25,267 nucleotides of DNA, from IMG/VR virus record IMGVR_UViG_3300025108_000349, positions 1 to 25,267 of that record, one strand, 5' to 3'. Shown here piece by piece: positions 16,152 to 23,725 of the stretch; the first letter of the stretch is position 1, and every line of letters begins with the position of its first letter. Below the pieces are notes generated by a model that was given only the letters and a program-made list of their open reading frames with translations, was not told the DNA's origin and did no database searches. A program made the position numbers and the translations under genes. The stretch is from a virus.

Positions 16152-16412
16152 TCACATCAGCATTTTTTTAATTGCTTCGTCAATTCCATCGATAAATGCC
16201 GCTCTTTTATCCCAAGTATCACCTTCTTCACTACCTTTCATAGGGTTTATGCACTTTTCTGAGTTTGCTCGGTTGCAAACAAGCCCAGCTAGGTCATATT
16301 CATTACCTTTTGCCCCTGTAGCCCAAAAATGCTGTCCATTTAACCACGTAGCGCCGCATTTTTCGCATTCTTTTCTGTCTAACTTTAAATCTGAGATTTC
16401 TTTATTAGCCAT
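16152..16412 (-). CDS. Four-cysteine zinc-ribbon protein, 86 aa
   Basis: The open frame extends to 16895, but the upstream part is an out-of-frame shadow of the 291-aa gene; ATG 16412 (MANKEISDLKLDRK) is the real start. Four cysteines, C16, C19, C46 and C54, form a zinc-ribbon pattern around ATWLNGQHFWATGAKGNEYD and LAGLVCN. I associate this protein with cyanophage and other marine-phage genomes, where it is of unknown function. It lies just after the terminator at 16492-16520, so it needs its own promoter or readthrough. The 79-nt gap upstream is AT-rich. Function unknown; zinc binding likely. Confidence 0.7.
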   Translation of the reverse strand: MANKEISDLKLDRKECEKCGATWLNGQHFWATGAKGNEYDLAGLVCNRANSEKCINPMKGSEEGDTWDKRAAFIDGIDEAIKKMLM

Positions 16413-16491
16413 AAGTGCTTCATGAGCGCAATGGAGTAAGTCAACTCTACATATTTTGAAAAAAATTAGTTTTATATGTTTACTAAAGCAC

Positions 16492-16520
16492 AAAAAAAGA
16501 CCCCTCTGGCGGGAGGGGTC
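16492..16520 (-). terminator. Strong rho-independent terminator after the 291-aa gene
   Basis: On the minus strand, GACCCCTC and GAGGGGTC form a perfect 8-bp G/C-rich stem with a 6-nt loop, followed directly by seven T residues. It sits 22 bp after the end of the 291-aa gene, so it probably ends the abundant capsid transcript, separating it from the zinc-ribbon and HhH genes. Confidence 0.9.
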
Positions 16521-16542
16521 GTCCGTGTTCCTAATTAGTGTA

Positions 16543-17418
16543 TCAGGAAGGTGAGGTGGAGGTGTAAACCTGTGACTCAACCAAACCGTCAGGTTGCAGA
16601 GCAACGTCTTGACGCTCGGGGGGTTCGTCAGGAAGGATCCAACAAACTTCGCAGATAGCGAGAGCCTTGTCATCACCAGACAGCTTGTTAGCACCGGCAC
16701 GGGGATCGTAGATACCTGAGCCTTGAGCCAAACCAGAAGCAGCAGAGCCGCCCAGGTTGGTCGTGGTAAACAACTTCCACTGAGTCTCGGATCCCAAAGC
16801 AGCAAGTGTGCTGGAATCGACGATGTTGGTGGAGGCCACGCTGCCGTTAGCGATGCGGCTGCTAGAGCCGACAATCGAAACGCCGAACTGACCACTGACG
16901 ACGGTGCCGTCAGCAGAAAGACCTTCGCCCACCGCAGGGATGAGAGTCAGGGTTGGGGTGGCAGAACCACCGGCAACACCAGAACTGACAACGTCGCCGC
17001 CGTCAACACGAAGTGATGCACGATACGCGTAAGCACCTGCAGGTGCCTTAAGGCCATCAGTGATGTCAGCCCGAACATCCTTATGGAAGTCAGGAGAAGG
17101 GATGATGACGTTCGCGTTGAGGAACGGCTGATTAGCGTCGTTAGACCCAGAGCCGTAAGGCTGTGTGTAGTAGCTCAGCTGATTGTTAGTGCCGAGAGCC
17201 TGATAACTCAGGTCGACATAACCGACTGCCTGTTGAGCAATCCAACCGGGACGGAACACAACGCCGACAGGACCGCCGACAGGTTGGTTCGTGTAGCTCT
17301 GTTGAACGCCATTTGCGTTCTCGAACTGCATGGTCTTGACTTCGTGCCAATACCGCAGAACGTTTACGTAGTTTCCAGGATAAATCTTGGAAACGTGAAG
17401 CTGGTTAGCGTTAATCAT
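16543..17418 (-). CDS. Putative capsid-associated protein, 291 aa
   Basis: A beta-rich protein directly after the major capsid gene (14-nt gap) with the strongest Shine-Dalgarno in the window, AGGAGGT, 8 nt before ATG 17418. Its base composition is visibly G/C-richer than most genes here, as expected for high expression. Residues 31-50 include NGVQQSY, which also occurs as NGVQQTY in the 273-aa protein on the other side of the capsid gene. The C-terminus has CEVCW and a Ser/Thr-rich tail. A decoration, cement or neck protein is most likely. No family was recognised. It ends in the terminator at 16492-16520. Confidence 0.65.
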   Translation of the reverse strand: MINANQLHVSKIYPGNYVNVLRYWHEVKTMQFENANGVQQSYTNQPVGGPVGVVFRPGWIAQQAVGYVDLSYQALGTNNQLSYYTQPYGSGSNDANQPFLNANVIIPSPDFHKDVRADITDGLKAPAGAYAYRASLRVDGGDVVSSGVAGGSATPTLTLIPAVGEGLSADGTVVSGQFGVSIVGSSSRIANGSVASTNIVDSSTLAALGSETQWKLFTTTNLGGSAASGLAQGSGIYDPRAGANKLSGDDKALAICEVCWILPDEPPERQDVALQPDGLVESQVYTSTSPS

Positions 17419-17432
17419 TGTTAGTTACCTCC

Positions 17433-18548
17433 TCAAGCGTCGAATGAGTAACCAACGGTTACGAAATCTGCATTAAGCAGCTCGAAACCTGCATACAACG
17501 ACCAAATCATCATGATATAGCGACTAAAATCGTCGTTATTGTTCAAGAGGACTTGAGCATTGGATCCACCGATACCCACGCCAATGGCTTGAGGACCGAA
17601 GAAGATACCAACAGCTGCGTTGTAGTCTTGCGCTGTCGCTGCAATCGTGGCAGCTTGAGTCTGAGTTGGCATGTTTGTGGACTCGAAGAAGCGAACTCCT
17701 TCAAACACAAAGCCGGTAGGCATGATCGGCTCGCCAGCCAAGAAGGTGGCTTGCCCAAAACCCTGACCCATGTAGAGAGCAGCGTTAGGCTGCATCCCAG
17801 ACATAAGTGGGTTGATTTGGCCGTTACCGGGGTAACGTGCAACCTCGCGGAAGTCAGAATTCTGACGGAGGTGCATCAAAAAGGTGGGATCGCAAATACA
17901 GCGATAGAAACCATCTTGGAATGTAGGAGTGTTCCGCTTACGCAGAGACTTAACCACACGAAGGAGGTCATCCTTAACGTCGAACTTAGCTTGCTCGGCG
18001 TTGGTGTAAGTTAGGGCTCCAGTTGCAAGATCACCGGGGAAGTAGTAACCACCCTGGCTATCGGAAGACTGGCCTTTAGAAACAGACTTAAGAAGTTCGT
18101 TTACAAAGACGCGGTCGCGCCAACGACGATAATCATCCAGCAGAGTCAGCGAACCGATGCTCTGGTGGAAAGTTGTAAGGTTGCCTGTATCAAGCAGAAG
18201 GCGCTGCGCTGTGATGAGAGTTTCACGCGCAATCTTAAAGGTAGAAGGCTGTGTAGGATCTGAAGGATCCGCAGGGCCGGTATACTCTTTAAGGGTTACC
18301 AGAACCTTGTCTTTGACAATGTTCCGGCTGTTAGCAGTACCAATGGTCTGCTCAGCGGTACGCTCGCGTGACTCTTTAGAGCCAGGGTTTCCGAAGAACC
18401 GGTAACGATCAAGCTGTACCGTCTGGCCTGGCTGCTTACTAAAATCGTGTACGACCACTGGTTCAGCGGCCATTTCTACGATGTAAGCAGGGTGCGGACG
18501 GTAAAGCTCTGCACCGAGAATCTTCGGGAAATCATTGTCGATGAACAA
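17433..18548 (-). CDS. Probable major capsid protein, 371 aa
   Basis: Assigned mainly from position (after portal, scaffold and a 273-aa virion protein) and from size typical of a HK97-fold capsid protein. Sequence features include a hydrophobic/polar mix (QPGQTVQLDRYRFFG), a helical stretch DDYRRWRDRVFVNELLKS, and a C-terminus rich in aromatic residues (YIMMIWSLYAGFELLNADFV). The start is TTG 18548, with no in-frame ATG before a stop; GAGGG lies about 7 nt before it, so it is a good initiation site. G/C content is above that of its surroundings. Fold not verified by a family motif, so capsid identity is inferred from context. Confidence 0.7.
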   Translation of the reverse strand: MFIDNDFPKILGAELYRPHPAYIVEMAAEPVVVHDFSKQPGQTVQLDRYRFFGNPGSKESRERTAEQTIGTANSRNIVKDKVLVTLKEYTGPADPSDPTQPSTFKIARETLITAQRLLLDTGNLTTFHQSIGSLTLLDDYRRWRDRVFVNELLKSVSKGQSSDSQGGYYFPGDLATGALTYTNAEQAKFDVKDDLLRVVKSLRKRNTPTFQDGFYRCICDPTFLMHLRQNSDFREVARYPGNGQINPLMSGMQPNAALYMGQGFGQATFLAGEPIMPTGFVFEGVRFFESTNMPTQTQAATIAATAQDYNAAVGIFFGPQAIGVGIGGSNAQVLLNNNDDFSRYIMMIWSLYAGFELLNADFVTVGYSFDA

Positions 18549-20027: not shown

Positions 20028-20077
20028 AAAAAAGCCCCCAGTTAGGGAGCTTAATTTCGCTGATTAACTTAACTGGG
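20028..20077 (-). terminator. Rho-independent terminator after the scaffold gene
   Basis: Reading on the minus strand, the stem CCCAGTTA (20070-20077) with TAACTGGG (20037-20044) is perfect over 8 bp; inner AGTTAAT and ATTAAGCT can pair further. After the hairpin come GGC and six T residues (20028-20033). It begins on the first base after the scaffold stop codon and closes the portal-scaffold block. Confidence 0.85.
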
Positions 20078-21010
20078 TCAGGAAGGATCCATGAACAAAA
20101 GCTTTGAGCGCATAGCTTCTGGTCCCATGGCACCAAGAACACGCCAAGCGTTTTCAGGGTTACGGTTCATCACATCAGTGAACTGATCCCACTGCTGTTG
20201 AGGAGCAACCCCTTGTTGTGAACCTGCTACACCAGCTGAAGGAGCGGGCATGTCGTAGGTCTGTTGATAGGCTTGACCTGCTTGCTGACCTTGCATGGCC
20301 AGAGCGTTGTCATCAACATCCACAGGCACGACTTCAGTGAAGTAGCGATCTGTGTAGTTAGCCAGATGATCAGGGTCTGTCAAAATTGTCTGCATCGCAT
20401 CATGACGAGCAGCAATAGTGTCAAGCTGGGTAGCTTGATTAACTAGAAGATCTTCGAGTCCGCAGGCGTACTGATTAAGAATGCCCGGAGCTTCGATACC
20501 GAAGTGGCTAACTACTTCTGCGGTTACGTCGCTGATTCCTGCTTTCGTTTCCGTAGAAGTTGGATAGGAAGCCTGGGTCGGTGTAACGCTGGTAGGTAAG
20601 GTCTGCGCTGCCTGGGGTGCCTGATAAGCCCAAGGCTGGGCCTGTAAAGTCTGACTGTTCTGTGGAGTAGCCTGCGCCTGCTCCGCCTGGTAGTAAGACT
20701 GTGGAGTTTGGCTGAGGGATGTCGAGTTGACTTGACTCAGCACCCGCTCCAACGAACCCATCGCTGCTTCCCACGGATTGCTGGGGGAGGATGGAGATGT
20801 TGACTGGCTGTACTGGTTGTTGGTAGAAGGGTCCGAAACCAGTGCCGCCTGCGACGGCTGTTGGTGCATAGGAACCGAAGCTACCGCCTGGGTAGGTGGT
20901 GCTTGGGTTTGTGGAACCCATTGTGGTGTTCCTACCGAACCCTGATCCACCGCCGGGGCTGCCGCCGGGGAGACCGGGCTCGGGATCGAAGCTTGGATCT
21001 GCTGGCTCAT
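20078..21010 (-). CDS. Scaffold-like capsid assembly protein, 310 aa
   Basis: The first 160 residues are Gln/Pro/Ala/Ser-rich and disorder-like (QAPPTQAVASVPMHQQPSQ). The remainder has a helical part (VTAEVVSHFGIEAPGILNQY, GLEDLLVNQATQL, MQTILTDPDHLANYTDRYF) and a Gln/Ala-rich end with DVMNRNPENAWRVLGAMGPE. Placed between portal and capsid gene, and with a typical scaffold composition, it is likely the internal assembly scaffold. The first 503 nt overlap the portal gene's 3' end in another frame. A start at Met86 (20755) would shorten the overlap to about 248 nt, but the domain VSHFGIE... at the portal stop shows that some overlap is unavoidable. Confidence 0.65.
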   Translation of the reverse strand: MSQQIQASIPSPVSPAAAPAVDQGSVGTPQWVPQTQAPPTQAVASVPMHQQPSQAALVSDPSTNNQYSQSTSPSSPSNPWEAAMGSLERVLSQVNSTSLSQTPQSYYQAEQAQATPQNSQTLQAQPWAYQAPQAAQTLPTSVTPTQASYPTSTETKAGISDVTAEVVSHFGIEAPGILNQYACGLEDLLVNQATQLDTIAARHDAMQTILTDPDHLANYTDRYFTEVVPVDVDDNALAMQGQQAGQAYQQTYDMPAPSAGVAGSQQGVAPQQQWDQFTDVMNRNPENAWRVLGAMGPEAMRSKLLFMDPS

Positions 21011-22733
21011 AGCTACCCGAGTAAGTTAGTTCTTCAGCGAGGTGGTCAAACGTCCTGTAAAGGAGCGGTGTAATATTCAGTCTAGGATCAGCCGCTAGAG
21101 GCTGATTAGGCGCAAGAGGATGCGGAGACTGCAACATCTGGCTTAATAATACCAGAAATTGTTGCATGGCTGATTGTGTTTGTTGGACCATCCTAAAAGG
21201 AAAGCCTTTTAACATTTCAGCTCTTTCTGAATCAGTCTTTTCAGGGAAAAGAAACTTCAGAGCTTCTATGCTATCAACACCCAGCTCCTGCAGGTTCCTA
21301 ACGACAATCGACTTTTGATTGATGTCGTAGGCAGTGTCTTCGTAGACATCACCTTGGAATCTGTAGGTTACTTCGCGCTCTCCGTCTTCAGGTAGACCGA
21401 CAACACCTGGAGGAACTGTATTAGTCTCCAGTGCGACTTTCATCGCTTGATTTACTTTAGCTTCAAATTTGACAAGTGACTGCTGATATTTTTCAATTGA
21501 CTCATCTGTTTCTTCTTTTGGAGGTTTGGGTTCTTTAAGCCCAGCCAGACTGACAAATGATTCTCTAAAAATTACTTCTTGGTGATAGATCATCATCTCA
21601 AGAAGACGATTAAAGCCGTAAGTCAAAAATCCTTTGTTTTTCCGAAGAGCCGTTGCCTGGGCTCGTCCCATCAAACCTTTAATCTCTGTGGCAGTAGCAC
21701 CAGCAGAAATAGAGATCTCATCAACCCCACCTAAGGCTGTTCTGATCTCCTCTCTCAACAAAAGAATGTATCGGTTCATGTCACCTGACACTGGGTCAGG
21801 AGTCATATAGCCCACACGATCCGAGGGTTCGACGTTGGCGATAATCCTTGGAACACGTAAACCGGAACCCATACCTGCTCCGAACGGCTCAGAAACCCGA
21901 GTCGACGGTTGGTTCATTCCCGCAAAACCACTTTGACTACTAATAGTGGGCCTAAAAGTAGACTGACTGTCGTTTGCTTCTACAAGATCGGTTCGTGGCC
22001 GAGAGCTAATAAGCGTTGGGTTACCAAAAAACTCAATGTTCTTAGCAACGTTTTTCGTAAGTTGATTGTGTAAAACAATCTGCTCCATAAACGGATCAAA
22101 CTCACCTTCTCCTTCTGTTCCACTTGAGTTTGGTTTATTGAGGACTTCCACGGCTGGGATGAACCCAAGTGTGTTAGGTCTACTCTTAGTTGGAGTTAAG
22201 ACTGAACCAGGCTCCAACTCAAAGCTAACTTCACTGTCAGTCTCAACTTCAGTAATTTCTTTGGCAGTGATTGTTAAACGAACATACCTTTTGTTTTGGC
22301 CGTAAGTGTCGGTAGGTAGCCCTAAAGAAGCGTTCTTTACCTTGTAGCTGTAGACAATTACGACTTCTTCTACATTACCGTTCGTGTCATGGTATACACG
22401 GTATTGATTTTTGTTAAAAAAGTAAATTTGATACTTAAGTTTTGGGTCGGGTCTGAAGTAAAAAAGACCGCAACCATCGATAAGAAAGTTACGGATGATT
22501 GCTGGGAATCGGATGTCTAGTTTATTAAGACTAATGACATCGTTTAAAAATCTTGTACGACCTTTAAACGTGTCTTGGTCACAATAAAAAGCCAAGCCTT
22601 TTTTCATCATCAACAGAATCATCTGCTGAAGATGACTCAAAACCACCATCGTGGACGATGAGTTACTTCGATCTTGAGTGCGTGAAGCCTCCAAAATCTC
22701 GGTAAAAGCTGTTCTAGTTTCGGAGGAACTCAT
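20508..22733 (-). CDS. Portal protein, 741 aa
   Basis: Residues about 30-400 have the portal pattern: a long helix near the start (SHLQQMILLMMKKGLAFYC), beta strands through YQIYFFNKNQYRVYHD, a conserved-type stretch NTLGFIPAVEVLNKP, the stem-helix motif FMEQIVLHNQLTKNVAKNIE with FFGNPTLI, and LLREEIRTALGGVDEISISAG then ATEIKGLMGRAQ. Portal proteins form the dodecameric DNA channel at the capsid vertex. From about residue 575 the protein becomes Gly/Pro/Ser/Gln-rich, without secondary structure, and ends basic (NQRRNRRSS); this part overlaps the scaffold gene out of frame by 503 nt. The terminase gene usually near the portal is not in this window. Confidence 0.85.
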   Translation of the reverse strand: MSSSETRTAFTEILEASRTQDRSNSSSTMVVLSHLQQMILLMMKKGLAFYCDQDTFKGRTRFLNDVISLNKLDIRFPAIIRNFLIDGCGLFYFRPDPKLKYQIYFFNKNQYRVYHDTNGNVEEVVIVYSYKVKNASLGLPTDTYGQNKRYVRLTITAKEITEVETDSEVSFELEPGSVLTPTKSRPNTLGFIPAVEVLNKPNSSGTEGEGEFDPFMEQIVLHNQLTKNVAKNIEFFGNPTLISSRPRTDLVEANDSQSTFRPTISSQSGFAGMNQPSTRVSEPFGAGMGSGLRVPRIIANVEPSDRVGYMTPDPVSGDMNRYILLLREEIRTALGGVDEISISAGATATEIKGLMGRAQATALRKNKGFLTYGFNRLLEMMIYHQEVIFRESFVSLAGLKEPKPPKEETDESIEKYQQSLVKFEAKVNQAMKVALETNTVPPGVVGLPEDGEREVTYRFQGDVYEDTAYDINQKSIVVRNLQELGVDSIEALKFLFPEKTDSERAEMLKGFPFRMVQQTQSAMQQFLVLLSQMLQSPHPLAPNQPLAADPRLNITPLLYRTFDHLAEELTYSGSYEPADPSFDPEPGLPGGSPGGGSGFGRNTTMGSTNPSTTYPGGSFGSYAPTAVAGGTGFGPFYQQPVQPVNISILPQQSVGSSDGFVGAGAESSQLDIPQPNSTVLLPGGAGAGYSTEQSDFTGPALGLSGTPGSADLTYQRYTDPGFLSNFYGNESRNQRRNRRSS

Positions 22734-22767: not shown

Positions 22768-22920
22768 TTACTTTTTGGAACTCATTTCTTTAGCTTTGCG
22801 AGCTTTAGAAAGAGCGGATTTACGCTTATCTTTCTTTTGGTCCTCTTCGTTAGAACCTGATTTTTCTTCTCTACTTTTCTTGAACTTTTCGAGAAGCTCG
22901 GGGGGCATTTTATTAGCCAT
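22768..22920 (-). CDS. Small Lys-rich protein, 50 aa
   Basis: Starting at ATG 22920, the gene overlaps the stop of the GT17 gene by 8 nt (ATGGCTAA), and ends 34 nt before the portal. An internal ATG at 22908 is an alternative start. The protein, MANKMPPELLEKFKKSREEK and SALSKARKAKEMSSKK, is rich in Lys, Glu and Ser and mostly helical. It may bind nucleic acid or assist portal/scaffold assembly; I do not recognise it. The tight junction supports reality. Confidence 0.6.
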   Translation of the reverse strand: MANKMPPELLEKFKKSREEKSGSNEEDQKKDKRKSALSKARKAKEMSSKK

Positions 22921-23725
22921 CAGGAAGTAAATACGCCTTAACTCTTTCTAGTTTAACTGCTTCAGGCATCAAATTTTCAACAGGGTAAGAAGTCAACAGA
23001 TGATCCTCTCGACCCAACATGTCTGTTTTACCTTCTTCAGGTTCAAAGTCCTCACACAGTTTCTGTACTTCAGGGCGATCCCATATGTAATATTCAGCAA
23101 TAGAACGAAGTTTTGTCTTTCGCTTATCTGAATCACCCATCCAACTCAAGTGCCAACCTGCGTCACGTTCTCCAAAATAATGATTCTCCGTACTAGCTCT
23201 CATTGAGGAAAGAGTACCAAAATCTTTGAATTTACCGACAGTACTTACAATTCCGCATCGCCAATCAAACAGCTCTCCCGTAGGAGATACAAGCTGTCTG
23301 TCAGCTCTGCCGTAGTGCATGCTCATGCTGAGTCTAACAATTTTTTCTTTCTCCTCTTTTACTACTTCCATAAGTTCAGAAAACCGAGAAGGGTTAGCAA
23401 TTTCATCGCAATCGGAACAGATGAAAATATCGTCATCATCCATTAAATCGAGACCGACACCTAGTGCGTCTCTCTGGCCACGCTCTCGAATCCATGGGTC
23501 TGGGACTTCTTCATAAGAAGGTAGTTCCACATGCAAGACTTGAATTTTTTCCTCTGGCAGACCAAGCTCTCGGATTGTTTCTAGGCATGTAAAGTTTTTC
23601 TCCTCACCTCTATGAGTTCTATTGGCGTCAGTGATCAAGAAACCATCGACGTGATCTTCTAATGTCCGAATACGCAGTTCGAGAAGTTCACGTTCATTAA
23701 AATAAGGAAAGCAATCTAGAAGCAC
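22913..23725 (-). CDS. GT17-family glycosyltransferase, 270 aa
   Basis: The start is GTG 23725; an in-frame TGA upstream leaves no ATG. The sequence matches the GT17 (beta-1,4-N-acetylglucosaminyltransferase-like) family: LLDCFPYFNERELLELRIR near the start, TLEDHVDGFLITDANRTHRGE, the WIRERGQRDAL stretch, and DDDIFICSDCDEI with a D105-C-D107 motif for metal and nucleotide sugar. The length fits the single catalytic domain. It is 37 nt after the 96-aa gene and overlaps the 50-aa gene. It could decorate virion proteins or host envelope glycans to change adsorption; acceptor and sugar are unknown. Family assignment by motif is strong. Confidence 0.85.
   Translation of the reverse strand: MLLDCFPYFNERELLELRIRTLEDHVDGFLITDANRTHRGEEKNFTCLETIRELGLPEEKIQVLHVELPSYEEVPDPWIRERGQRDALGVGLDLMDDDDIFICSDCDEIANPSRFSELMEVVKEEKEKIVRLSMSMHYGRADRQLVSPTGELFDWRCGIVSTVGKFKDFGTLSSMRASTENHYFGERDAGWHLSWMGDSDKRKTKLRSIAEYYIWDRPEVQKLCEDFEPEEGKTDMLGREDHLLTSYPVENLMPEAVKLERVKAYLLPDG

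Follow-up and report, generated by a model that had tools for sequence, protein, structure and literature searches.

A long, conserved out-of-frame overlap between portal and scaffold-type genes in S-EIV1-like cyanophages

Two head genes sharing one stretch of DNA

The whole stretch of DNA analysed, here called the window, is a virus record of 25,267 bases and belongs to the Synechococcus phage S-EIV1 type. Its minus strand carries, in order, a portal gene (20508-22733(-), 741 aa, ending in TAG at 20510-20508), a scaffold-type open reading frame (ORF) in the +1 frame of the portal (20078-21010(-), 310 aa, starting at ATG 21010) and, beyond a short plus-strand ORF and one of 273 aa, the gene for the major head (capsid) protein (17433-18548(-), 371 aa; phrog_1357, E 6e-23). 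The first two overlap by 503 nt (20508-21010(-)), corresponding to portal residues 575-741 and scaffold residues 1-167, an arrangement supported by the ORF list, conservation and selection. A sequence-only reading of this DNA had run the portal to TAG 20508 and the scaffold from ATG 21010, in different frames and with 503 nt free of stops in both, and the ORF list agrees. An in-frame TAA five codons upstream of the scaffold ATG (21026-21028(-)) bounds the scaffold frame, and a terminator-like hairpin with a T-run (20032-20052(-)) lies directly 3' of the scaffold stop. A glycosyltransferase family 17-like gene is found upstream of the portal (22913-23725(-); Pfam PF04724, E 9e-13).

Calling the 741-aa ORF a portal is safe. 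It matched phrog_20475 (virion structural protein, E 6e-165) and phrog_64 (portal, E 3e-7), and Foldseek aligned its model, of moderate confidence, with the solved portals of E1004, SU10, T7, 80alpha and P-SCSP1u (best E 2.6e-9). Among the matches listed, S-EIV1 was the sole named phage matching the window portal and is the sole cultured relative, with 47% identity in the portal and 69% in the major head protein.

The second ORF matched no PHROG, Pfam or PDB family, and a fold search with its low-confidence model (mean pLDDT 46) gave no match. We infer a scaffold function from gene position and a helical C-terminus rather than from homology: the gene sits at a conserved position between the portal and the major head protein, the latter being downstream on the same strand in 234 loci, and the model, at low overall confidence, shows a long helix and a three-helix C-terminus, with helices predicted at residues 161-224 and 270-306. 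Scaffolds of unrelated phages are often without sequence similarity to one another, so the missing homologue lowers the case for scaffold membership but does not exclude it.

Composition and structure models set the shared stretch apart from the rest of both proteins. Portal residues 575-741 are rich in Gly, Pro and Ser, and the earlier description of this tail as disorder-like agrees with the portal model, which is disordered there; scaffold residues 1-167 are rich in Ala, Gln, Ser and Pro, and are predicted to be mostly disordered except for one short conserved helix (the alignments behind the models left out the S-EIV1 record). The 5' edge of the overlap falls just past the last portal-core helix and the 3' edge where the scaffold model turns helical, so the overlap would join a disordered tail to a mostly disordered arm.

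Conservation and selection in both frames

Portal relatives were taken from IMG/VR and from bacterial genome bins, with matches listed that favour close relatives. They form at least five portal clades, namely W (the window's), E (S-EIV1), M (marine), F (L289) and a deeper lineage (L447); portals of clade W are 42-48% identical to those of other clades, and F and E portals about 52% identical to each other. The +1 overlap was kept in all 268 first-set loci in which the portal stop was seen and, across the full set, a +1 scaffold-type overlap of 446-641 nt was present in 313 of 315 distinct sequences. The two exceptions are probably sequence, read or assembly errors: L444 differs from L267 by three single-base indels that lie outside the overlap, whereas L448 has a 122-nt deletion relative to L447, to which it is otherwise 99-100% identical. 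Relatives with a normal portal end, or close homologues that had lost one frame, were the cases that would have spoken against overprinting, and we found none beyond these two.

The overlap event predates the split of the sampled clades. No overlap-free outgroup occurred among the matches listed (seeds S-EIV1, L164, L289 and L267 plus genome contigs), although deeper ones may exist. Codon usage leans weakly toward the portal tail being older than the scaffold frame, since in clades E and M the codon usage of the portal frame resembles that of the gene core a little more than scaffold-frame usage does, with no difference in favour of either frame in W. Contigs L163-L167 of this phage group lie in bins labelled Rhodobacteraceae, Blastopirellula, Crocinitomicaceae and others; these labels probably reflect binning contamination, not hosts.

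Selection was measured in 74 independent pairs from the portal-core tree, with every change scored as synonymous or non-synonymous in each frame, and with two controls: a fictitious scaffold frame imposed on the portal core, and a fictitious portal frame imposed on the scaffold-only part. Portal-frame omega in the overlap was 0.41 for changes non-synonymous in the scaffold and 0.28 for scaffold-synonymous changes, compared with 1.54 and 0.96 where no portal is coded; scaffold-frame omega was 0.30/0.20, compared with 0.76/0.72 where no scaffold is coded. Bootstrap intervals for overlap and control did not touch, and clades W, E and M each gave the same pattern alone. Third-position divergence fell from 0.33 in the portal core to 0.10 in the overlap, and in the scaffold frame it rose from about 0.16 to 0.33 in a sharp step exactly at the portal stop. 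When we simulated evolution with one frame constrained, the other was broken in 48-55 of the 74 pairs, compared with none observed. The synonymous-rate check proposed in the sequence-only reading thus indicates purifying selection in both frames against matched controls, and its view of the locus as overprinting is upheld, both frames being conserved and under such selection in every clade tested.

Double openness of a single sequence by chance is moderately improbable. With the window portal residues fixed and core codon usage, the scaffold frame stayed open in 2.8% of resamplings, and with the scaffold residues fixed the portal frame stayed open in 0 of 1,000; for L289, openness given the other protein was 50%, which is not extreme. 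The other four frames over the overlap contain stops at 0.012-0.074 per codon. The decisive support for double coding is evolutionary, drawn from the sequence comparisons.

Portal and scaffold are 98% and 97% identical, respectively, to those of locus L003. As a control within the window, an ORF at 16152-16895(-) has a 353-nt out-of-frame overlap, and its identity in L003 is 69%, versus 97% for the main frame. This 247-aa ORF overlaps a 291-aa ORF (16543-17418) out of frame, and its upstream part evolves as a spurious reading; the real gene probably starts further in, at MANKEISDLK.

To see how the two proteins divide the shared DNA, we read per-site constraint in 10-codon bins counted from the scaffold start. 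Change fell mostly at portal third positions in bins +50 to +69, mostly at scaffold third positions in bins +70 to +99 (the region of the NP[WY]xxA helix) and again more at portal third positions in bins +120 to +139, where the GSADL-type motif lies. Constraint thus alternates between the frames, with the two proteins largely taking turns. The scaffold motif NP[WY]xxA[FM], with a predicted helix at residues 79-94, occupies 20729-20779(-), where scaffold-frame constraint is dominant. Two portal-tail motifs also lie in the overlap: [ILV]PxPG[ST]xL-like (here IPQPNSTVL; 20694-20720(-)), with P673 nearly invariant and P675 invariant, and G[SD][AP]DL (here GSADL; 20598-20612(-)), with G708 and D711 nearly invariant. 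The basic portal C-terminus (GNESRNQRRNRRSS; 20511-20552(-)) is encoded where, in the other frame, the part of the scaffold predicted to be helical begins.

The internal start and the rival readings

The scaffold start lies within the portal gene and is preceded closely by a stop, with 1-5 codons between the two in 265 of 268 loci. Of the 268 loci, 203 start with ATG and 65 with GTG. In clades E, M and F, AGGAG or GAGG occurs 5-10 nt upstream of it, and these Shine-Dalgarno sequences inside the portal gene are invariant or nearly so (E, aaaAGGAGatgagttATG; M, AAGGAGttaagttacaGTG; F, aaaaaGAGGtaacctATG). Paired with the 16S tail, they give duplex energies of -8.9, -7.7 and -7.1, respectively; for other sites in the portal gene, medians are about -2.4 to -3.7. 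The ribosome-binding site in clade W is weak (-3.8, versus -2.5 at control positions), so the start there must rely on something else. As a mechanism of production, internal initiation is well supported by these conserved signals. The same signals do not bear out the suggestion, as it was stated, that the stoichiometry of the two proteins is tied: scaffold translation has a separate start, served in most clades by a strong ribosome-binding site of its own, and could therefore be set independently.

As far as 60-90 codons ahead of the scaffold start, the portal gene already shows depressed synonymous change (21129-21300(-) in the window, and the same stretch in relatives). A conserved block, TGGTATTATTaa..CAGaTGtTgCAg, lies about 140 nt upstream of the start in clade W; the block of clade E, TTAGGTGTTGATAGCATTGAaGCACTG, differs from it and is located about 260-235 nt upstream. 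A third ORF behind this depression is ruled out by stops in the other frames; an internal promoter or a regulatory RNA is possible. The clade W block of depressed synonymous change at 21129-21160(-) holds TGGTATTATT, which matches an extended -10 element, yet such matches are expected by chance. A scan with the sigma-70 consensus found no promoter at the block, and a promoter role for it is conjecture. Near the scaffold start, RNA structure showed a weak alifold excess over column shuffles, and Rfam gave no match.

We considered whether a single coded frame could account for these data. Were the portal frame alone coded to 20508, the scaffold would start past the portal stop and the open +1 frame would be a by-product of composition; the S-EIV1 record does annotate a 133-aa product from 23 nt past the portal stop, and GC-rich, low-complexity sequence is readily open in a second frame, as in L289. 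Such an account is extremely improbable given the scaffold-frame omega (0.30/0.20 against 0.76/0.72 in the control), the NP[WY]xxA motif and helix conserved in that frame, the start codon, upstream stop and Shine-Dalgarno sequence conserved within the portal gene, and the retention of the scaffold frame in 313 of 315 sequences. Conversely, the portal might end near residue 575, with its tail an annotation read-through artefact and the scaffold frame alone coded, which would suit a portal fold that is complete ahead of the overlap and a tail predicted to be disordered. However, no intact relative has a portal-frame stop before 20508, portal-frame omega is 0.41/0.28 rather than 1.54/0.96, two short portal motifs are conserved over clades and some bins evolve purely as portal-frame coding, leaving next to no room for this account.

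A further alternative accepts both frames but derives the scaffold N-terminal part mainly from ribosomal frameshifting, giving a portal-scaffold fusion instead of internal initiation. The genes are adjacent and their frames stand in a +1 relation, but nearly all relatives have an in-frame stop 1-5 codons before the conserved start, most clades have a Shine-Dalgarno sequence at that start, and the window sequence scanned from 21233 to 20078 contains no X XXY YYZ slippery heptamer; we regard frameshifting as very unlikely. Our preferred explanation, with a probability of roughly 0.94, is a genuine, old, out-of-frame overlap of portal and scaffold-type genes in S-EIV1-like cyanophages, with both proteins made from one stretch of mRNA by means of an internal start. 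Ribosomes that begin at the portal ATG would read frame 0 up to TAG 20508, whereas others would start at ATG 21010, internal to the portal gene, where relatives have either ATG or GTG, and read the +1 frame to 20078; conservation of both readings suggests that both are translated. The shared DNA would then encode a disordered C-terminal tail behind the folded portal core and a mostly disordered N-terminal scaffold arm, two low-complexity regions that can share DNA because the short motifs of each mainly lie where the other tolerates change.

Possible roles and relation to known systems

We infer roles in assembly for both the portal tail and the scaffold arm. In P22, the scaffold builds a dome on the portal (PMC12005531), so the portal tail and the scaffold arm may plausibly be in physical contact. 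A stronger proposal is that the overlap persists for a benefit that it brings: the portal tail, disordered and with its two motifs and basic end, and the disordered scaffold arm would act together at the procapsid portal vertex, the shared DNA and internal start would couple and time their synthesis, and separating the genes would cost fitness even with both proteins intact. We consider this proposal speculative and on balance unlikely.

Judged from the sequence comparisons, the overlap of these two head genes is real, ancient and unannotated double coding. Long out-of-frame overlaps are expected in tiny genomes; the genomes here are large (79 kb for S-EIV1), which makes size pressure a poor explanation for an overlap lasting across portals of 42-48% identity. 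The cyanobacterial viruses bearing it form a large, mostly uncultured group, and their hundreds of natural sequences offer material for examining the sharing of one DNA stretch by two proteins. GenBank gives the scaffold-type gene of S-EIV1 in truncated form, and neither PHROGs nor Pfam contains the family, indicating that pipelines that forbid long overlaps hide a structural gene in a widespread cyanophage group.

The closest comparison is S-EIV1 itself (KJ410740), which shares the portal family, the overlap (554 nt) and the gene order with the major head protein, but there the overlap is unannotated: of the 325-aa scaffold-type ORF, the record annotates only the last 133 residues (AHV82225.1), from 23 nt past the portal stop. 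The portal of S-EIV1 has 767 aa, and its overlap corresponds to scaffold residues 1-185 and to portal residues from about 583 onward. The S-EIV1 major head protein also appears to be misannotated in GenBank. An intact plus-strand ORF of 383 aa (L081 9314-10465; KJ410740 60859-62010), which shares 69% identity with the major head protein of the window, lies in a region covered there by the minus-strand CDS AHV82227.1 and a 3' remnant, AHV82228.1.

A literature search of limited extent yielded no earlier account of such an overlap between portal and scaffold genes, although several known systems share parts of the arrangement. In lambda C/Nu3 and similar protease-scaffold pairs, the scaffold is likewise made from a start inside the upstream head gene, but in frame, so that protein sequence is common to both products, whereas here DNA alone is shared. 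The Rz/Rz1 spanin genes of tailed phages likewise have a conserved, long out-of-frame overlap, but they are lysis genes and often fully nested, unlike the portal and scaffold considered here. Terminal (+1) virus overlaps such as phiX174 A/K resemble this one in having the 3' end of one gene over the 5' end of the next on one strand, in their disorder-rich products and in selection on both frames (reviewed in PMC8227390). Across surveyed virus reference genomes, +1 overlaps have a median length of 14 nt (IQR 8-26; PMC8903798); those described here measure 446-641 nt and lie between two head-assembly genes in phages with large genomes.
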